64,000 bases of DNA. It comes from an uncultured Pelagibacteraceae bacterium. GTDB taxonomy: Bacteria > Pseudomonadota > Alphaproteobacteria > Pelagibacterales > Pelagibacteraceae. Positions within the stretch are counted from its first letter, which is position 1; each line of letters begins with the position of its first letter. Below, piece by piece: positions 19,926 to 64,000 of the stretch. The position numbers and the translations under genes were made by a program. The DNA lies in NCBI GenBank assembly GCA_902514755.1, contig CABXRY010000001.1, forward strand, positions 1-64,000, in the 5' to 3' direction. The notes under the pieces are model-generated. The model was given only the letters and a program-made list of their open reading frames with translations, was not told the DNA's origin and ran no database searches.

Positions 19926-20043
19926 TGCCTGGCAATGTCCTACTCTTCCGTGTCTTAAGACAAAGTACCATTGGCGCAGAAAGGCTTGACTGCCGAGTTC
20001 GGAATGGGATCGGGTATTACACTTTCGCAATAATCACCAGGCA
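19926..20043 (-). rRNA. rrf: 5S ribosomal RNA
   Basis: Reverse strand TGCCTGGTGATTATTGCGAAAGTGTAATACCCGATCCCATTCCGAACTCGGCAGTCAAGCC...GGTACTTTGTCTTAAGACACGGAAGAGTAGGACATTGCCAGGCA; terminal stem TGCCTGG/CCAGGCA. Confidence 0.95.
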
Positions 20044-41547: not shown

Positions 41548-42345
41548 TTAATTCCTATAATTTTGAAATGCCAAATAAGTAGTGGCAAAATATTCTACAA
41601 TAGCTCTTAAAATAATTAATGCTGATAAAATTAACAATATAAAGGTAATATCAACATCAGTTATCCCATCGATTAATAAAATTAATATTAGAAAATCAGT
41701 ACTTCTTGCTCTTGCATCTAAAAAGGATGTATAAATATTATATAGTTTTGTTATTTTTTTCATTTTTTTTCCTTGTCTCAAATCTTCCTCAAAGTTATTT
41801 TTCTTTTTATCATTTGTCTTATAGTCATCTCTAATATTTTTATAATAAAGAAGATCAGAGAACGTATTAAATTTGGTTATTAAAATTACAAAGGCGAATA
41901 ATGGAAAAAAAATTATATATTCCGGGTAATAATTCGTAGTATAAAAAACAAAAGCCATTTTGAATGCCACATCACAAATATTTGCTCCATAAACATCAAG
42001 TGCATGGCCCAAAAATGAGGTTTTGTTTAATCTTCGTGCTAAAGCTCCATCAGCCCAGTCAAAAGTTCCTTTGGTAAAAATCATAAATAATCCAAGGTAA
42101 AAAAAACAATTATGAGGACTTAAAATAACTAGGAAGGCACCAAAAACACCAGTTAAAATATAAAGAACTGTAACAAAGTTTGGTGATTTAATAATTTTTT
42201 GTGTAATGAACAAAAATAGAGAAGCAGTTTCTATATAGTAAACAGCTTTAATTAGTGAGTAAGGTGAATTGATATTTAAAATATTTTTCCAACGTTCAAA
42301 TTGAACACTATAAATTTTCTTTCTAATCTTTTTATACTGCTCCAT
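41548..42345 (-). CDS. CDP-alcohol phosphatidyltransferase-like membrane protein
   Basis: DWADGALARRLNKTSFLGHALD (D-x2-DG-x2-AR-x8-G-x3-D) with multiple TM helices. Confidence 0.85.
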   Translation of the reverse strand: MEQYKKIRKKIYSVQFERWKNILNINSPYSLIKAVYYIETASLFLFITQKIIKSPNFVTVLYILTGVFGAFLVILSPHNCFFYLGLFMIFTKGTFDWADGALARRLNKTSFLGHALDVYGANICDVAFKMAFVFYTTNYYPEYIIFFPLFAFVILITKFNTFSDLLYYKNIRDDYKTNDKKKNNFEEDLRQGKKMKKITKLYNIYTSFLDARARSTDFLILILLIDGITDVDITFILLILSALIILRAIVEYFATTYLAFQNYRN

Positions 42346-42348
42346 AAT

Positions 42349-43431
42349 TTAGAATATTTTATTAAGTTCTTTGATTAAAATTTCCTTTTCGATATTTAGT
42401 GGATGATTTTTTAACCTTTCGACGTTGACTGAGTCGACTATAAGTTCTAAATCTTCTTTTTTAACTCCTAGATTAGATAACTTTGTTTCTAAGCCACCTA
42501 CTTGCATTAAATTATACCAATACTTTTCAAAATTTTTAATATCAATATGCAACATTAAACATATATCATTCATAACTTTTTTGAGATTATCACACCCAGA
42601 ATTATAATTAATTTTTCCAATAAATCCCAAAGTTAAAGCCACAGCATGCCCGTGCGAAACATTATATTTTATAGTCAGAAAGTAAGATAATGCATGTGGC
42701 AAGGTTGTTTTTGATATGTTTATTGCCTTCCCTGAATAATATGCGGCCTCTACCATATTCTTTGTATTTTTAGACTCATTATTTAAATATCCTTTTAAAT
42801 TCATATTGATTAATTCAATTGCTCTTCTAGCGTATTTTCTGCTCATGTCTGTTGCATTAACAGACCAAAAGGACTCTATAGCTTGAGAAAAAGCATCAAA
42901 TAAAGTACATGCTTTTAGATAATTTGGCATTTCTTGAACTAATGAAGTGTCTGCTATTACATACTCTGGTAATAATTTTTCGCTAGCAATAGAAAATTTT
43001 TTTTTACCAAGATATACAACACTAAAACTTGTCGCTTCACTACCTGTACCTGCAGTAGTTGGCATAACTAACAAAGGTAAAAATTTATTTTTTATAATTT
43101 CTTTTCCTCTTATTACATTTTCATAATTTTCTTTAGAAAGAGCTGTAACACTAATTAATTTTGCTGCATCAATAATTCTTCCACCTCCAATAGCAATAAT
43201 TAAATCTGAATTTGATTGTTTGAGTTTTTCACATCCGGAAATTATAGTTTTAAAATTTGAGTCAGTCATAATAAATGTTTCTATACTGGCACTTTTGGTG
43301 TAAGGCTTAATTAAATTCTCGATAGATTGATAAGCGTTATTTCCAACAACTAAAAAAATTTTTTTTATCCTAAGATCATTTAAGATTTCAGGTAAAATGG
43401 TTATGCCTTGATTAATAAATACTTTTTGCAA
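42349..43431 (-). CDS. Iron-containing alcohol dehydrogenase, probable phosphonoacetaldehyde reductase
   Basis: IAIGGGRIIDAAKLI, PTTAGTGSEATSFSVVY, ALSYFLTIKYNVSHGHAVALTL; between PEP mutase and CDP-alcohol transferase genes. Confidence 0.88.
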   Translation of the reverse strand: MQKVFINQGITILPEILNDLRIKKIFLVVGNNAYQSIENLIKPYTKSASIETFIMTDSNFKTIISGCEKLKQSNSDLIIAIGGGRIIDAAKLISVTALSKENYENVIRGKEIIKNKFLPLLVMPTTAGTGSEATSFSVVYLGKKKFSIASEKLLPEYVIADTSLVQEMPNYLKACTLFDAFSQAIESFWSVNATDMSRKYARRAIELINMNLKGYLNNESKNTKNMVEAAYYSGKAINISKTTLPHALSYFLTIKYNVSHGHAVALTLGFIGKINYNSGCDNLKKVMNDICLMLHIDIKNFEKYWYNLMQVGGLETKLSNLGVKKEDLELIVDSVNVERLKNHPLNIEKEILIKELNKIF

Positions 43432-44739
43432 CTACTTAGTACCTGGAATGATTTCTAAAATTTCTTTAATAGACATGCAGTCTGACTCAGCCTCCAAGCT
43501 TCTTCCATTTTTTAACAAAGATTTGGCAACTTTTGACATTGCAGGATAAGCAGCTCGCAACATATGATTTGCAGAAATAACAACATTAACACCCATTTTA
43601 ATGAACTCTTCTACGGTTACGGAATTAAAACTTGTTGGCACCACTACTACAGGCGTACTATTATCTACAGCTCTAAATTTTTCCATAAATTCAACTATTT
43701 CTGCTGGATCTTTATGTCTTGAATGTATCATGATCCCATCAGCACCTGACTTGATGTAGGCTTCTGCTCGAATTAATGCATCTTTCATACCAGCCTCTAG
43801 AATTAGTGACTCTATTCGCGCAATTATCATAAAATCATCACTTAGTTGAGCAGCTTTTCCCCGATTAATCTTATCACAAAAGTTTTCAATAGTCTCTTGT
43901 GTTTGTTTTACCTCATTGCCAAAAAGAGAGTTTTTTTTAAGCCCTGTTTTATCCTCTATAACAACTGCACTAACGCCAGCTCGCTCCAAACTACGCACAT
44001 TAAATTCAAAATGTTCAGTTTTTCCACCTGTGTCACCATCAAATATCATTGGTTTACTAGTTACTTCAAAAATATCATTCACTGAACTAATTCGTGAAGT
44101 CATATCAATAGCTTCGATATCTGGCTTTCCTCTAGCTGTTGAGTCTGTTAAAGAGCTTGACCAAACACCATCGAAGTAAACATTTTTGCCATCTCTTTCA
44201 ACAACTGTGTTCTCTGCAATAAGTGCACTTAATGCATTATGTGCTTCTAAAATACGAACAATTGGCTTAGCATTTATCAATCTTCTAAGCCTTGCTCTTC
44301 TTACGTCAACCGTTGTGCCAATTTCTGCTAAAGCATTGTTTAATTGTGTTGAAGAAATTCCATGTGTATATTTAATTTCAACCAACTCACCACCCCAATC
44401 AGCAAGAGTATCAATTACTTGTTGTCTTGTTTTAATCTGAACTCCTTCTTTCCAATCATCACCATGAACTACAATGTCAGGTTTAATCCTTTTAAGATTT
44501 GGCCTGTAATCTAAAGTTTCTTGAGCAATAACACTTGATACTCCTTTAATATTTTCAATCACTTCTTTTCTCAGTTCAAATGACATAAAAGGCATTCTTT
44601 TATAGCTTGCTATCGCTTTGTCAGTAAGCAATCCAACTGTCACATCACCTAATTTTGCAGCTTCTTTTAAAATATTCATGTGTCCTGGATGCACTAAATC
44701 TGCACTCATGCCAACGTAAATCTTCTTACTCATAATCAT
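43432..44739 (-). CDS. pepM: Phosphoenolpyruvate mutase fused to an N-terminal HxGH cytidylyltransferase
   Basis: N-term [20 protein letters not shown]...[11 protein letters not shown]-term [16 protein letters not shown] and [10 protein letters not shown] (PEP mutase EDKxxxKxNS signature). Confidence 0.95.
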
Positions 44740-45871
44740 TTTCTCTAATAAATTTCATTAAATCTTCTTTGTTTTTTTTTGGTGTAGTATTAGGTCTTCC
44801 TAAATCTTTTCTAAAACCTTTCTTAACCTTAATCTCAAAAAATACTTTACCATCAAATTTTTTTAATACCTCCATAGATTGAATAATTTCTTTATTTGTT
44901 TTAGCATGCAAAATTAAATCATATCCACTTGCTTTAGCGATATTTTGAAAATCTATATTAAAGCCAACTGTAGATTGTCCACCAACGGAGTCGTGGGCAC
45001 CATTATTTAAAACTATATGTCGAAAATTATTACATTGTAAGTTACCATTTATTGCGATTGAACCCATATGCATCAAAGCTGCTCCATCACCATCGAGACA
45101 AAAAACTCTTCTACTAGGCTTTTGTAAAGCAATTCCCATTGCGATTTGATTAGCATGTCCCATTCCACCAACTGTTAAAAAATCTTTATTATGACTTTTG
45201 TTTGTTTCTTCTCTATATTCAAATAACTCTCTTGATGCAACGCCAGTGGTAGATATTATGATATCTTTATTATCTAGATTTTTAACAATTGTTTTTATTG
45301 CATCCTCTCTAAATAATTCATAATTAGCATAATGATCAATTTTTGTTGTATATTTAGAAAAAGTGTCTTTTTGAACAACAATCGCGTAAGGTACATTGTT
45401 ATTTAATGCTTCATTGGTTGCTGTTTTAATAATTTCGTCAGCTTGTTCATCTGTTTTATCTGTAGATAAAATTTGATAAGGTACTTCCATCGTTTCTAAC
45501 ATCTCGATTGTAACCCTTCCTTGTTTTTTATGTTGAGGCTCATCTTTTATACCAGGTTGACCTCTCCAACCAATCATTAATAACATTGGAATAGAATAAA
45601 CTTCAGGATCGCTTAGAGATAATAATGGATTAACTATATTGCCAAGTCCAGAGTTCTGCATATAAATTAGAGGCAATTTACCTGTTGCCAAATAGTATCC
45701 TATACCAATTGCTAATGCATTACCCTCATTAGCGGCAATAATATGATTCTTTGAGTCTGCATGATCTGAAATATATGCACAAATATTCTTTAAGAGAGAG
45801 TCTGGGACTCCAGAAAAAAAGTTAATATCATTTTTAACCAGGCTTTTAAAAAAAAATTTAGTATTTATCAT
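44726..45871 (-). CDS. ppd: Phosphonopyruvate decarboxylase
   Basis: [78 protein letters not shown]. Confidence 0.95.
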
Positions 45872-58528: not shown

Positions 58529-59236
58529 CTATATAGTTAAATTATTTTTTAATATAATAGATTTAATATCATTATTATCATAATTCATCATTAAGTCTAA
58601 TATTGATAAATGTGATATGAAATTCTTTTTATTTCCTTTTTGCGTATAAATTGGATGTTTATAGTCTTGAAAGATTAAATTAATATTGTTTTTTTTAAAA
58701 GCTTCCTTATTAGCATAGTTTTCTCCTTCACCTCCAAATATATAAGTAGAGGCATTTAATTTTAGGCACATATCCAGAACCAAATCACTCTTTTGTCCTT
58801 GAATATTATAGTCGCTTGCCATTACAATTTTTATATCCTTATCAATTATTTTCAAAATATATTTATAAAAAAAAATATTTAATTCCATTAATTTCTGCCA
58901 TTTTTTGACAAGATACATTTCTTCTAAAAAAGACTTGTGATTGTTAAAAAAAGGGTGGTTTTTATAAATCAAAAAAATTGTTTTATAATGCTTCCTTGAC
59001 CAGTTGGTATCATTGTTAACCTCAATCTCACCAATAGTTTTTTCAAAATGATCTTTTGATTTTGTTGGGACACTAAGCATCAGTTCGCCATTATTAGAGT
59101 AAATTTTGTTCCTATTGTCCCATTCTTTTTTTTGATATTGGGCGATATCAAAAAAACAAAAAACATCAGCAAACAAAATTTTATGAAATGTTCCAAGCCA
59201 TGGCAAATAAGTAGGCTGATGTGCAGTTAAAATCAG
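58529..59236 (-). CDS. WbqC family protein; probable CTG start at 59236 (ORF track starts at internal TTG 59206)
   Basis: Extended frame LILTAHQPTYLPWLGTFHKILFADVFCFFDIAQYQKKEWDNRNKI restores the HQPxYLPW motif; GGAG 6 nt upstream of CTG; in-frame TAA immediately before. Confidence 0.8.
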   Translation of the reverse strand: MILTAHQPTYLPWLGTFHKILFADVFCFFDIAQYQKKEWDNRNKIYSNNGELMLSVPTKSKDHFEKTIGEIEVNNDTNWSRKHYKTIFLIYKNHPFFNNHKSFLEEMYLVKKWQKLMELNIFFYKYILKIIDKDIKIVMASDYNIQGQKSDLVLDMCLKLNASTYIFGGEGENYANKEAFKKNNINLIFQDYKHPIYTQKGNKKNFISHLSILDLMMNYDNNDIKSIILKNNLTI

Positions 59237-59312: not shown

Positions 59313-60242
59313 TCATTTTTTTAAATTTACTTTTTCTTTCAATATTGGTTTTCCTAATCCATCAATGTCTTGTCTAGTTCTGATTGGTTTAAGTTCACCT
59401 TTTATATTGGAGTTTATTTCATCAATATATGTTTGTTGAAAATTTTTATTTGATTTTCCTATTAAATATCTCAATGAAATTCTAAATTTATCAGACTCAT
59501 TTTCAACTGGTTGTGTCCCATGTAATGTGCAATTATGCCAGATTGCTGCATAGCCAGGCTTACCTGTTAAAATACATTCATCGCACTCAACCTTCTCTCC
59601 TTGCTCATTTTCATATATCCATAAGTCATTATTATTTTTTTTTAATTTATGAGGAAATAATGTTGCTCCAAGTCTATGACTATTCTTTAATAAATGTAAA
59701 GGAGAATCACTTTTACTAACTTCGTGAATATAAACATAAAGTGTGAAAAAAGTTGATGGATCTAAGTCGATCTTTCCTTTTGGCCAGTCAATTATGTCCT
59801 GATGGAAATCTATTCCTCTAAAATATGTAATATCTCTAAATTTATTCTTTATATAAGGTCCTAAGTTTGGAACATTAATACCTTTTATTTCTGACTTTAC
59901 CCACTCAGGCAACCATGAGGACGGCACTCCACAAACGGCTTTTCTTATAACAATTTCATAATCTTTACCTAAAAGTTCCGTTATTAAGCTATTTATTGCC
60001 TCATTTTCTTCAATAAATTTTAAATCATCATTAAACTGATTAAGAAAATTGAAAGTTTTTGTTGGATTATGTTTTAAATGACTTTCCTCTAATTTATACT
60101 CTTCTTTTGTTTGAAACAAAGAAGAGCTAAAATTTCTTTTTTCTCTTATTTTTTTATAAATACTCTCAACACTATCTTTGTCTAGAAGCTCTTTAAAAAT
60201 ATAAAAACCATTGTTATATATTTCCCTTGCTGGACCTGTCAT
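59313..60242 (-). CDS. Phytanoyl-CoA dioxygenase (PhyH) family Fe/2OG oxygenase
   Basis: YFRGIDFHQDIIDWP (HxD), IWHNCTLHGTQPVENESDKFRISLRYLI (distal His and Arg). Confidence 0.87.
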   Translation of the reverse strand: MTGPAREIYNNGFYIFKELLDKDSVESIYKKIREKRNFSSSLFQTKEEYKLEESHLKHNPTKTFNFLNQFNDDLKFIEENEAINSLITELLGKDYEIVIRKAVCGVPSSWLPEWVKSEIKGINVPNLGPYIKNKFRDITYFRGIDFHQDIIDWPKGKIDLDPSTFFTLYVYIHEVSKSDSPLHLLKNSHRLGATLFPHKLKKNNNDLWIYENEQGEKVECDECILTGKPGYAAIWHNCTLHGTQPVENESDKFRISLRYLIGKSNKNFQQTYIDEINSNIKGELKPIRTRQDIDGLGKPILKEKVNLKK

Positions 60243-60398: not shown

Positions 60399-61040
60399 TT
60401 ATAAATTAAACTCTGATTTTTTAACTTCTATTATATCTAAATAAAACTTTTCTGTTGCATCAGCCTCATTACATGTTTCAAAAAAATGAGAATTTTGATT
60501 ATTAACTTTTTTTAAATGAAATCTTTCTTTTAACTTAAATCCAAATCTGTTATGTAACAACATTGCCATAGAATTATGTGATAATACTTGTGCATTAATT
60601 TCATCTACTTTAAGCACTTCAAACGCCCATTCAATAATAGATTTCTCAGCAAAGTATATAAGGTCAGTGTGTCCCCCAGATTTACCTCTGATGACATTAT
60701 CCAACTGAGCTTGTTTAGAATTAATTTCATCCAAGCCTATATGGCCAATTAATTCATTGTCCAAATAAATACCAAAAAAAATTCTATTTGGTTGAGCTAT
60801 TAAAAGATTTTTAATGTAATGCGTGGTACTTTGAACTGTTACTTTTGACTGATTGACAAAGAATCTGTTAAAAGTATTACGCCATTTCATAAATGAGTTT
60901 ATCAATTCATCATTTTTAAGTGCCCAATTACCGATTGGAATTAGCTCTGCTAAAATTTGACCATCTAGATCACAAACATGAATAGAAGAAGCTGCCGCTT
61001 CTTTGAATTCATTTTTTTTTAGTTTTTGTAAATCAATCAT
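60399..61040 (-). CDS. GNAT acetyltransferase, RimJ/RimL-like
   Basis: FFGIYLDNELIGHIGLDEI; IIEWAFEVLKVDEINAQVLSHNSMAMLLHNRFGFKLKERF. Confidence 0.85.
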   Translation of the reverse strand: MIDLQKLKKNEFKEAAASSIHVCDLDGQILAELIPIGNWALKNDELINSFMKWRNTFNRFFVNQSKVTVQSTTHYIKNLLIAQPNRIFFGIYLDNELIGHIGLDEINSKQAQLDNVIRGKSGGHTDLIYFAEKSIIEWAFEVLKVDEINAQVLSHNSMAMLLHNRFGFKLKERFHLKKVNNQNSHFFETCNEADATEKFYLDIIEVKKSEFNL

Positions 61041-61042
61041 GA

Positions 61043-62338
61043 TTAATCTTTTTTAAATCTATGACCTACTTTAACTTCAGAAAATTTTATCCTCATAGGC
61101 AGCATGTGACTGGGTAGAGCCTTATTTAAAAATATTTGAAATTTATTTTTATCAATTTTTATATTTTTTGCCAATTGAACAGTAAGCTCGACATGTTGAC
61201 CTGTTATTGGATTTGGCTTACCCTCTGCTTTAACTAGACTTACATCATCATATTGCAACGCTACACGCTCAACTTCTGATGCCATAAATTTTAAACCTCC
61301 AACATTAATAACATCACTGGTTCGACCTGTTACCTTATAGTATCCATCACACTCTTCTACAATATCTTTTGTATTATACCAGCCTTCTTCATTAAAAGGA
61401 CTACTAGCATTTAAATATCCTAACATTCTTGTTTGAGAACGAATTTCAAGCACATTGTCCACTACTCTTGTTTCAATATCTTCACCACCAATTTTCATAA
61501 ATAAACTATTTCGAGCTTTACTTTTAACACGAACAATTCCTAGCTCAGACATTCCAAAAGTTTGTCTAAAATCTACATAAGGAAGTAAATCACAAAGCAA
61601 ATCTAGTGTTGGCTGGTCCATACGTTCAGTTCCATAGGTTATAATCCTAAGAGATTTTGGAACTTTATCAGGTATTAAACCGCTCATTAACATCATGCGA
61701 AGAAAGGTTGGTGTTGTGGGAAGCACTTCAATTTTGTGCTCCTCACAAGTTGCTAAAATATCCTCAACACTTCTAGATCTTGGCGCTACAACAGTACCTT
61801 TATTAAAAAGGGTGTGAAGAAGAGTGTTAAGTCCCCCAATATGATCAAACAATAGAAAATTAATAGCTTTCAATGTAGGACGGGGTGTTTCAAATCGCTT
61901 CATAAACACAGTTAAATCATGCAAAATTGCTTTTGGTCTACCGGTAGTTCCTGTTGAAAAAAGTACTAATCCTGCATGTTTTTGAGATCGCAGGTTTTCG
62001 ATTAATTCATGTTTCTGATTGTGATGAATACGCTTTATTGTGTTGCCATCTATTATTATATCAACAAATGCTGACTGAAAGAAGTATTCATGTTGCGATT
62101 TAGTTTCAGTTGTAAGAGGTACTAGAATAACATTTTTGTCAATCAGCTGTAATAGTGTCAATATTGATTGAGGGTCAAAGTCACCTATTAGAGCTACTAC
62201 ATCACCACTATTGACATCTGATAAATCTAGAGATTTATGATAAACTATTTCTTTAAAACTTAATTTACCTTTAGAATGCTCGAGAAAAGGATGATCAATA
62301 TCTTCCCAACGCTTCTTAAGCTTGTCTAAAATCTTCAC
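61043..62338 (-). CDS. ANL-superfamily AMP-dependent acyl ligase
   Basis: GLVLFSTGTTGRPKAILHDL; YNTKDIVEECDGYYKVTGRTSDVINVGGLKFMASEVE. Confidence 0.92.
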   Translation of the reverse strand: MKILDKLKKRWEDIDHPFLEHSKGKLSFKEIVYHKSLDLSDVNSGDVVALIGDFDPQSILTLLQLIDKNVILVPLTTETKSQHEYFFQSAFVDIIIDGNTIKRIHHNQKHELIENLRSQKHAGLVLFSTGTTGRPKAILHDLTVFMKRFETPRPTLKAINFLLFDHIGGLNTLLHTLFNKGTVVAPRSRSVEDILATCEEHKIEVLPTTPTFLRMMLMSGLIPDKVPKSLRIITYGTERMDQPTLDLLCDLLPYVDFRQTFGMSELGIVRVKSKARNSLFMKIGGEDIETRVVDNVLEIRSQTRMLGYLNASSPFNEEGWYNTKDIVEECDGYYKVTGRTSDVINVGGLKFMASEVERVALQYDDVSLVKAEGKPNPITGQHVELTVQLAKNIKIDKNKFQIFLNKALPSHMLPMRIKFSEVKVGHRFKKD

Positions 62339-63015
62339 TAAACACCGCCAACATTAAGGACTTGTCCACTTAATGAGGAGGCTTTTTCATCAATTAAAAG
62401 TTCAACAAGATCACAGATATCTGACTTCTGATATTGCTTTGGTACTATTTGTTGTGAAGTAATATTTTTGATCTGACTATCTGTAATGCCTTTTAGTAAG
62501 TCTGTTTTTATCGGTCCGGGTGCTATACAGTTTACGCGCACATTAAAGTCAGCCATTTCTCTCGCAAAGGTTCGTGAAAAAGTCTCAACCCCGGCTTTAG
62601 AAGCTGCATACACAGATTCACCTTTTAATGCTAGTGCCACTGCAATCGTAGAAAAATTTATGAAACTTCCATATTTTTGTCTTAACATTATTGGTGCAAA
62701 TAGCTGACAACAATATATTGTGCCAACTAAGTTTGTTTGAATCAAATTTTGAACAGTTGACTTGTCAGTTGTTATTGCTAAGTTCATTGACGCTATACCA
62801 GCTGCATTTATAAAAGCTTTTACTGGCATCTTCATTCTTTTAATTTCGCGAGCAGCACTTTTAACAGACAAGTAATTACTTACATCACACTCGATACCTT
62901 CAATATGAAGATCATTTATAGATCTTGAGAGACCAACGACCTTCTCACTTCTTTCTATCAAACGCTCAGTAATTGCCTTTCCAAGTCCACGGCTGGCTCC
63001 AGTAACAATAATCAA
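62338..63015 (-). CDS. SDR family oxidoreductase (FabG-like)
   Basis: MIIVTGASRGLGKAITERL, INAAGIASMN, VYAASKAGVETFSRTFAREMADFNVRVNCIAPGPIKTD. Confidence 0.93.
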   Translation of the reverse strand: MIIVTGASRGLGKAITERLIERSEKVVGLSRSINDLHIEGIECDVSNYLSVKSAAREIKRMKMPVKAFINAAGIASMNLAITTDKSTVQNLIQTNLVGTIYCCQLFAPIMLRQKYGSFINFSTIAVALALKGESVYAASKAGVETFSRTFAREMADFNVRVNCIAPGPIKTDLLKGITDSQIKNITSQQIVPKQYQKSDICDLVELLIDEKASSLSGQVLNVGGV

Positions 63016-63291
63016 CTATGCCTCCGATTGTTTTTTAAACTCTTCAGCAAGCGCTGCTACACTTCGAAACATACTACGTGATTTGGACATTGCTTCTTCT
63101 GAAGTCCAGTCAAATTCAAAATCATACTCATCAGCTATATCCTCTAGAGCAATACATAATTCCACAAGCTTCATTGAGTCTAACAAAGATTCGCTTCCGA
63201 TTAGACTCATTTCTTCTTTTACTTCAACTTTACCAGCTAACAAATTAGAAATTGTTGTAATTACAATCTCGCTAGCTTTATTATATTTCAT
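63016..63291 (-). CDS. Acyl carrier protein
   Basis: GSESLLDSMKLVELCIALED: phosphopantetheine-attachment DSM motif. Confidence 0.88.
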   Translation of the reverse strand: MKYNKASEIVITTISNLLAGKVEVKEEMSLIGSESLLDSMKLVELCIALEDIADEYDFEFDWTSEEAMSKSRSMFRSVAALAEEFKKQSEA

Positions 63292-63397
63292 TTAAATTCT
63301 TTAAGTTAAACAATTTTAATTAAGTATTTTTTTATATTAACAATTATTTAATAATTGAAGAATACAAGTAATATTTTATTAGATAGTAAATAAATAA

Positions 63398-64000
63398 TCA
63401 ACACAATGATGCTTCACTTGCAATTTGTGCAATTTTAATTACATCCGCTTGTTTTAATCCTGGATAGGCAGGCAAAGAGACAGTGCAATGTGCTAGAGAT
63501 CTGGCATATGGAAAATTATTTGGATCACCTAATAATTCATATTCTTCAATAGGAACAATAGCTTTAACATCTGCTTTTGCAAGCGCGCTTATTACTTTTT
63601 TTGGATTCTTGCATTTCATTACTATTCTATAGCGCACTGGTTCAATTATTTTTGATTCATCATCTATAAGATTTAGTCCGGATTGACGATAAATTTCAAA
63701 CCATTTTTGTCTTTGCCTTATGAAATTAGGTAATTTTAGAAGTTGCGCTCTGCCAATGGCTGCTTGTAAATCCGTCATCTGAAAATTAAAACGAAGATTA
63801 CTATCCTTGCGACAATCAAATTCACGGTAATCCCGAATATAATCAATCAATTTTTTATTTCGTGAGATTACAGCACCTCCTTGTCCACCACTTGTGATCA
63901 TTTTTGTAGCATAAAATGAACAAATTCCTAATTCTCCACGTAAACCAATTCTTTTTCCCTTAATTAAAGCGCCAAATGATTGTGCTAAATCTTCTACAAC
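63398..64000 (-). CDS. DegT/DnrJ/EryC1/StrS aminotransferase (partial, runs off window end)
   Basis: Frame stays open from ORF-track start 63901 to window end: VVEDLAQSFGALIKGKRIGLRGELGICSFYATKMITSGGQGGAVISRNKKL; PLP lysine in FYATK. Confidence 0.93.
   Translation of the reverse strand, partial: VVEDLAQSFGALIKGKRIGLRGELGICSFYATKMITSGGQGGAVISRNKKLIDYIRDYREFDCRKDSNLRFNFQMTDLQAAIGRAQLLKLPNFIRQRQKWFEIYRQSGLNLIDDESKIIEPVRYRIVMKCKNPKKVISALAKADVKAIVPIEEYELLGDPNNFPYARSLAHCTVSLPAYPGLKQADVIKIAQIASEASLC

Follow-up and report, generated by a model that had tools for sequence, protein, structure and literature searches.

Acylation of surface sugars with groups carried on an acyl carrier protein (ACP) is established in kind: it is known in Vibrio cholerae O1 and Pseudomonas syringae and, by gene content, in islands of Aeromonas and enterobacteria. 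Here we examine a candidate module of this type in the first 64,000 nucleotides (the window) of contig CABXRY010000001.1, from an uncultured member of the Pelagibacteraceae (SAR11). The module is comprised of genes for a predicted ACP, a FabG-like short-chain dehydrogenase/reductase (SDR), and an adenylate-forming ligase of the ANL family, followed by a PseH-like GNAT N-acyltransferase, and it accompanies genes for a pseudaminic acid-type (nonulosonate) sugar. We propose, with moderate confidence, that the module makes a short hydroxyacyl-ACP, and that the GNAT transfers the acyl group at the PseH step of the pseudaminic-type cluster. The window adds a further member to this group of systems, one found in a streamlined marine genome and combined with a pseudaminic cluster; new to us are the breadth and stability of the ACP-SDR-ligase trio, the exchange of acyltransferase types behind it, and the link between its ligase and enzymes of antibiotic priming.

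Known Systems and Their Likeness to the Window Locus

Among the tetronate genes of V. cholerae O1, rfbK/rfbL (wbeL) encode a ligase and a dedicated ACP (PMC12208996; PMC3441752). As proposed for the window, RfbL and RfbK provide the hydroxyacyl group carried by an amino sugar, in that case of the O antigen, although the product differs (2,4-dihydroxybutanoate on perosamine), and the comparison is one of published gene function only. In place of an SDR, the tetronate route also has an iron-alcohol dehydrogenase and a reductase of the LuxC type. The viosamine island of P. syringae carries vioA, vioB, vioS, vioR, and acp, and vioR mutants lose N-(3-hydroxybutyryl)viosamine (PMC3927599). Like the window, this island encodes a DegT aminotransferase, an SDR, an ACP, and a sugar N-acyltransferase, and the hydroxyacyl amino sugar was demonstrated there by mass spectrometry; unlike the window, it has a ketosynthase III and no ligase, its acyltransferase is VioB, and its sugar is viosamine. 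No VioS-like ketosynthase was found among the genes read around the window trio.

The group II flagellin island of Aeromonas (orf1-3) and the enterobacterial flagellin islands encode Acp, FabG, CaiC, LuxE, and LuxC (PMC7874193; PMC4875605). These islands share with the window an ACP, a 3-oxoacyl-ACP reductase, and an AMP-dependent synthetase, and in Aeromonas the genes lie between pse genes; they differ in adding LuxE and LuxC and in serving flagellin, and the likeness is drawn from gene content. An initial annotation of the window supposed that such an ACP-based route would be unusual in so streamlined a genome, but ACP-dependent acyl-sugar routes are published, including the combination of ACP, 3-oxoacyl-ACP reductase, and AMP ligase beside pse genes. 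Neither LuxE nor LuxC occurs among the genes neighboring the window trio, and LuxC was rejected as a missing reductase, the only match being a weak one inside a 501-aa open reading frame (ORF) on another contig. The sfm operon of Shewanella oneidensis was likewise rejected as a precedent, as SO_3264 encodes a methyltransferase and SO_3265 an ATP-grasp protein. Papers on flagellin glycans label such ACP, reductase, and ligase genes "fatty acid synthesis," perhaps for making a "liposugar." The role that we propose is narrower and testable: the trio would provide a single small acyl group for use by an interchangeable sugar N-acyltransferase.

A further point of comparison comes from antibiotic biosynthesis, where MupQ, MupS, and MacpD make 3-hydroxypropionyl-ACP from malonyl-coenzyme A (CoA), and where thiomarinol (TmlQ, TmlS, and TacpD) starts from 4-hydroxybutanoyl (PMC10098928). 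As proposed for the window, these systems use a ligase, an SDR, and an ACP to obtain a hydroxyacyl-ACP, and the ligases are homologous; in contrast to the window, they feed a polyketide/fatty-acid chain, their gene order is reversed, and their SDR and ACP are only remotely similar.

A Compact Four-Gene Unit

All genes of the unit are on the minus strand, in the order ACP (91 aa; 63016-63291), SDR (225 aa; 62338-63015; PF00106, 1e-40), ligase (431 aa; 61043-62338; PF00501, 2e-16), and GNAT (60399-61040; PF13420, 1e-9). The initial annotation had described five same-strand genes here, the fifth being a DegT aminotransferase upstream of the ACP, and all five ORFs were found where it placed them; its reading of the junctions was also right, in that the ACP and SDR genes abut (63015/63016) and the SDR and ligase genes share base 62338. 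The ligase and GNAT genes are 2 nt apart, while the flanking junctions are loose (DegT to ACP, 106 nt; GNAT to a PhyH-type oxygenase gene, 156 nt), so the compact unit is limited to the four genes. Pfam families support the assignments of the GNAT, ligase (AMP-binding), SDR, and DegT. The GC content of the trio (0.34-0.37) exceeds that of the window (0.286), but foreign GC was discarded as a mark of the trio since DegT, PseI, and PseB are similar. A promoter scan yielded nothing above chance.

Conservation and Distribution of the Trio

To place the trio in a wider context, an alignment of the ligase was used to scan the genomes of about 85,000 species, giving 577 relatives, from which the 80 best loci were retained; these are the loci closest to the window ligase and not a random sample. 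A full ligase ORF is present in 78, and 70 hold ACP, SDR, and ligase, with the trio contiguous and in the order ACP-SDR-ligase in 60 of these 70. In four loci without the ACP, the ligase is close to a contig edge. Trio junctions are mostly -4 or -1 nt. Because the ligase alone served as the query, its association with the ACP and SDR is an independent result. The real unit is ACP-SDR-ligase, followed in the window by the PseH-like GNAT, and this layout is not due to chance.

The hosts of the trio include Pseudomonadota, Verrucomicrobiota, Cyanobacteriota, Thermodesulfobacteriota, Chloroflexota, Acidobacteriota, Gemmatimonadota, and others. A Rhodobacteraceae copy of the ligase shares 78% identity with that of the window, and one from a verrucomicrobial single-cell assembly shares 76%; in the ligase tree, the window ligase groups with these two and with SAR116 and Litorivicinus copies. 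The ACP occurs in 1 of 61 close-relative genomes, that one being the window genome itself, and in 6 of 399 genomes of a phylum sample; its absence from all 60 relatives led us to reject vertical inheritance among them. Transfer of the trio between phyla is the simplest reading of these sequence relationships, although some of the records are bins or single-cell assemblies. This distribution points to movement of the trio across distant phyla and into a SAR11 surface-antigen island. No match to the ACP was found by tblastn in phages or plasmids, nor in viral contigs, and the ligase had no match in phages.

Two further observations concern the ligase relatives. Loci L076-L088 form a distinct clade, mainly from bins of Gemmatimonadota, Acidobacteriota, and Latescibacterota, with the order ligase, FAD-dependent halogenase-like gene, ACP, and SDR. 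In Yersinia rohdei, the ligase copy (L075 10001-11304) is broken into two overlapping frames.

Predicted Functions of the Encoded Proteins

The window ACP has no Pfam or NCBIfam match, falling short of the PF00550 gathering score, and only 1 of 47 members of its family matches PF00550, weakly. The predicted phosphopantetheine site is Ser39, in the motif LLDSMKLVEL; this serine is invariant in 73 of 73 aligned sequences, while the preceding Asp varies. A profile of the family retrieves ACPs from the PDB (best 2e-5). The AlphaFold (AF2) model, with a predicted local distance difference test score of 91, places Ser39 at the start of a helix (39-55), and its top Foldseek matches are ACPs and other carrier proteins (probability ∼1.0; TM 0.6-0.75), with MacpD third best (TM 0.68); the best E-value is 0.02, and none falls below 0.001 for so short a protein. 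By its predicted fold, we take the 91-aa protein to be a real ACP. The genome also encodes AcpS; a PF00550 search of the genome gave no match, which is uninformative since this model misses the window ACP as well. In several family members, Lys replaces the Asp of the DS motif (KSR, KSA, or KSH; L056, L059, L060, L065, L072, L074, L011, L012, and L015), a charge reversal beside the phosphopantetheine serine that may bear on AcpS recognition.

The catalytic residues of the two partner enzymes are likewise conserved. In the SDR tetrad (N95-S122-Y136-K140), the Asn, Tyr, and Lys are present in 76 of 76 sequences and the Ser in 75, and the top family models are 3-oxoacyl-ACP reductases, although TIGR01830 is below its cut-off. 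The P-loop of the ligase and its residues E238, E265, D325, R339, K350, and K429 are kept in 78-79 of 79 sequences, with the C-terminal Lys429 in all 79, and the ligase is predicted to load the ACP. Its relation to a ligase encoded on plasmid pTML1 is clear (37% identity, 220 bits, E 3e-70), whereas no PDB ligase scores above 46 bits. We take this plasmid gene to be TmlQ, given where it lies in the thiomarinol cluster; TmlQ is the only biochemically characterized ligase relative found in this analysis. The GNAT scores 45.4 bits against the PseH model (TIGR03585), below the curated cut-off of 93.1, but its best PDB match by sequence is PseH itself (4xpk, E 1e-6), and it is predicted to move the ACP-bound acyl group onto an amino sugar.

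Exchange of the Acyltransferase Behind the Trio

Together with the window GNAT, 43 loci with a plausible gene immediately after the ligase make up a set of 44, from which doubtful ORFs had been pruned by hand. By Pfam and NCBIfam models, this set contains approximately 20 GNATs (14 by the PseH model), nine proteins of the NeuD/PglB/VioB model, and four of ketosynthase III. A stricter automatic count of 58 sugar-clade loci gave 18 GNAT, eight NeuD-type, five FabH, one DegT, and one PIG-L. On a quick ligase tree, the GNAT and NeuD types swap at least seven times, and this alternation is why we regard the trio as the stable unit and the acyltransferase as exchanged. That both exchange partners belong to families which include amino-sugar N-acyltransferases is the main ground for interpreting the trio as a source of acyl donors for amino sugars. 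Homologs of the window GNAT itself occur near the trio in L028, L034, L039, L043, L046, L047, and L073.

The Nonulosonate Gene Cluster

Contig 1 extends to 85,903 bases, and beyond the DegT gene, upstream of the trio, it carries a PseI/NeuB-like synthase (contig 64507-65571), PseG (65568-66650; 312 bits), a class III aminotransferase (AT3; 66647-67936), PseF in two frames (67933-68623), a Gfo/Idh oxidoreductase (68779-69729), a second synthase (69720-70787), PseC (70803-71978; 523 bits), and PseB (71982-72983; 518 bits), after which comes an ABC transporter. Compared with the PseB-PseC-PseH-PseG-PseI-PseF pathway, PseB, PseC, and PseG are over their curated cut-offs, and there are PseI-like genes and a pseF split between two frames. 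The cluster departs from this pathway in the low PseH score of its GNAT, in the ACP module alongside, in its two synthases (both below the NeuB and PseI cut-offs), and in the extra AT3, DegT, and Gfo/Idh genes. As judged from these gene models, the cluster is of the pseudaminic acid type. The frame split in pseF may have arisen by misassembly or decay, or may mark a phase-variable site comparable to the poly-A tract of V. cholerae wbeL.

The initial annotation looked to the sequence past 64 kb for a nucleotide-sugar dehydratase. A dehydratase does lie there, namely PseB, but it is paired with PseC, and the acceptor amino sugar is for this reason probably a pseudaminic-type precursor made independently of this DegT. 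Among the cluster genes read, no second PseH candidate was seen. With PseH as the nearest structural relative of the GNAT and no other candidate present, the GNAT is proposed for the PseH step.

Proposed Pathway and Alternatives

From the genes, motifs, predicted ACP fold, conserved gene order, pse context, and AcpS gene described above, we infer the reactions and their order, the acceptor amine, and the acyl group as follows. The host AcpS would add phosphopantetheine to Ser39 of the ACP, the ligase would adenylate a short acid and load it onto the ACP, and the SDR would reduce the loaded group to give a hydroxyacyl-ACP. Acting at the PseH step, the GNAT would then take the hydroxyacyl group off the ACP and attach it to the 4-amine of UDP-4-amino-4,6-dideoxy-AltNAc, the product of PseB and PseC, and PseG, PseI, and PseF would convert this to a CMP-nonulosonate with the hydroxyacyl group at N-7, destined for a surface glycan. 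For the acyl group, a C3-C4 hydroxyacid is probable, either 3-hydroxybutyryl (from acetoacetate) or 3-hydroxypropionyl/4-hydroxybutyryl formed by priming of the mupirocin/thiomarinol type.

Several points weigh against this pathway. No member of the trio clade has a known product, and the GNAT may take acetyl-CoA instead of the ACP. Only 5 of 78 loci have recognizable nonulosonate-specific genes close to the trio, which means that the acceptors must as a rule be other amino sugars. At just 26 of the 58 sugar-clade loci was the gene immediately behind the ligase recognized as an acyltransferase (of the remainder, three are at contig edges and 22 are unassigned, with ORF calls often unreliable). 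Furthermore, a FabG-like SDR without a ketosynthase leaves the keto substrate unclear, and the pseF frame is split at a T/A homopolymer (contig 68351-68382; L001:10351-10382).

The choice of acyl group separates two specific versions of the proposed pathway, both of which we regard as possible but tentative. In the first, the ligase would join the free carboxylate of malonyl-CoA or succinyl-CoA to the ACP, and the SDR would reduce the CoA thioester to yield 3-hydroxypropionyl-ACP or 4-hydroxybutyryl-ACP, to be passed to a sugar rather than to a polyketide synthase (PKS). Mupirocin priming itself reportedly involves such a bis-thioester. This version accounts for a ligase and a reductase in the absence of a ketosynthase, and it is consistent with the similarity of the ligase to TmlQ, with the rank of MacpD among the fold matches of the ACP, with the hydroxyacyl starters of the two antibiotics, and with the presence on pTML1 and on Bradyrhizobium and Burkholderia plasmids of ligase, SDR, and ACP genes followed by a PKS-type gene. 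However, TmlQ, itself on a long branch, falls outside the 61-row sugar-type ligase clade (branch support 100), TmlS and the window SDR share just 26% identity, TacpD has no BLAST-detectable similarity to the ACP, and the gene order is reversed. Given the position of the plasmid ligase relative to that clade and the scant or absent similarity of the accompanying SDR and ACP, priming-like chemistry is plausible and not established, and we do not claim membership in the antibiotic system.

In the second version, the ligase would load acetoacetate, or a ketosynthase encoded elsewhere would provide acetoacetyl-ACP, and the SDR would reduce it to 3-hydroxybutyryl-ACP for an N-(3-hydroxybutyryl) sugar as in P. 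syringae. The best family models of the SDR, as 3-oxoacyl-ACP reductases, argue for this, as do the FabH-like genes that follow the trio in about five sugar-clade loci and the loss of the 3-hydroxybutyryl sugar from vioR mutants of the vioR/vioS/acp island. Yet the viosamine route relies on a ketosynthase and lacks a ligase, whereas the reverse is true of the window cluster.

Published glycan masses offer a further comparison. Aeromonas caviae Sch3 has plain Pse5Ac7Ac, for which we calculate a residue mass of 316.13, while Aeromonas piscicola AH-3, with ACP, reductase, and AMP ligase genes in its island, has a pseudaminic acid derivative of 376.14 Da. The difference of 60.02 is consistent with replacement of two acetyls by two 3-hydroxypropionyl groups, or of a single acetyl by one dihydroxybutanoyl group. 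Among the O1-specific genes of Yersinia ruckeri, neighboring locus tags denote a phosphopantetheine-site protein, an AMP-dependent synthetase, and a 3-oxoacyl-ACP reductase; both AH-3 and Y. ruckeri are likened to the trio clade by gene content. The O1 O antigen of Y. ruckeri contains a 4-hydroxybutyramido nonulosonate.

A broader proposal, which we put forward as speculative, is that the trio represents a widespread, horizontally moving hydroxyacyl-ACP priming module common to antibiotic polyketide and surface-sugar clusters, in which a dicarboxylic acyl-CoA would become an omega-hydroxyacyl group on the ACP and pass, through an exchangeable GNAT or NeuD-type enzyme, to nonulosonates or other amino sugars. 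To our knowledge, omega-hydroxyacyl priming chemistry has so far not been assigned to any surface glycan pathway.

DegT and PhyH as Neighbors of the Module

According to the initial annotation, DegT, ACP, SDR, ligase, and GNAT together form a self-contained route, with the acceptor amine made by this DegT, an arrangement that we now consider unlikely. The DegT gene (340 aa; contig 63398-64420, minus strand, running past the window end; PF01041, 2e-46, full length) is adjacent to the others on the same strand, and at locus L034 of Aeromonas enteropelogenes, DegT, GNAT, and CmcI-like genes are followed by ACP-SDR-ligase, all within a CDP-sugar cluster. The L034 DegT, however, scored best to PseC and not to the window DegT, which was never the best match near the trio in the fetched loci and scores below its own curated cut-off; the contig also has a canonical PseC already, and the 106-nt gap precedes the ACP gene.

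The one other close homolog of the window DegT in 200 sampled genomes (42% identity; L101) occurs in a locus without the trio. The five-gene unit does not hold, since this is the kind of separation that the initial annotation had itself named as counting against it. The order at L101 is PseC, aldo/keto reductase-like, cytidylyltransferase-like, AT3, PseG, methyltransferase-like, PseI, FAD oxidoreductase-like, hexapeptide transferase, DegT, WbqC, and PIG-L. The contig shares the backbone AT3, PseG, PseI, and DegT, but here the four-gene unit and PhyH come between DegT and WbqC (58529-59206, minus; PF08889, 5e-60), and PIG-L lies further on. From this one comparison locus, the ACP unit appears to have been inserted between DegT and WbqC, with WbqC marking the far side of the insertion, and by gene neighborhood the DegT is assigned to the nonulosonate backbone, outside the module. 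Of the initial annotation, the tightly packed dedicated ACP (serine intact), ligase (core motifs), FabG-like SDR (tetrad), and PseH-kind GNAT are supported, and the inclusion of DegT is not. The PhyH-type oxygenase (59313-60242, minus; PF05721, 2e-8), suggested earlier as a chain hydroxylase, has no match near any fetched locus and is treated here as a neighbor of the module only.

Least likely is that the trio serves a lipid, polyketide, or other small molecule and is a mere hitchhiker in the island: distant relatives do lie beside PKS genes or the halogenase-like gene of L076-L088, but the window cluster has no PKS or halogenase, the sugar-type ligase clade is distinct, the next gene encodes a PseH-like GNAT, and nonulosonate genes surround it.

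The Surface Island

Published SAR11 genomes have a cell-surface island, hypervariable region 2 (HVR2), between the 5S and 23S genes of a split rRNA operon. Here, a 5S gene lies at window 19927-20041 and a partial 16S gene at contig 80112-80603 (L002:2112-2603), with a masked stretch separating the nonulosonate cluster from the 16S, and the cluster looks to be in such a hypervariable island, between the 5S and 23S/16S rRNA genes. In this setting, the sugar decoration may matter for recognition by phages and grazers.

The island also contains phosphonate genes (window 41548-45871), encoding a cytidylyltransferase-PEP mutase fusion and a phosphonopyruvate decarboxylase, both over curated cut-offs, together with an iron-alcohol dehydrogenase and a CDP-alcohol transferase-like gene. 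These genes suggest that a phosphonate-decorated surface glycan is a likely further product of the island.

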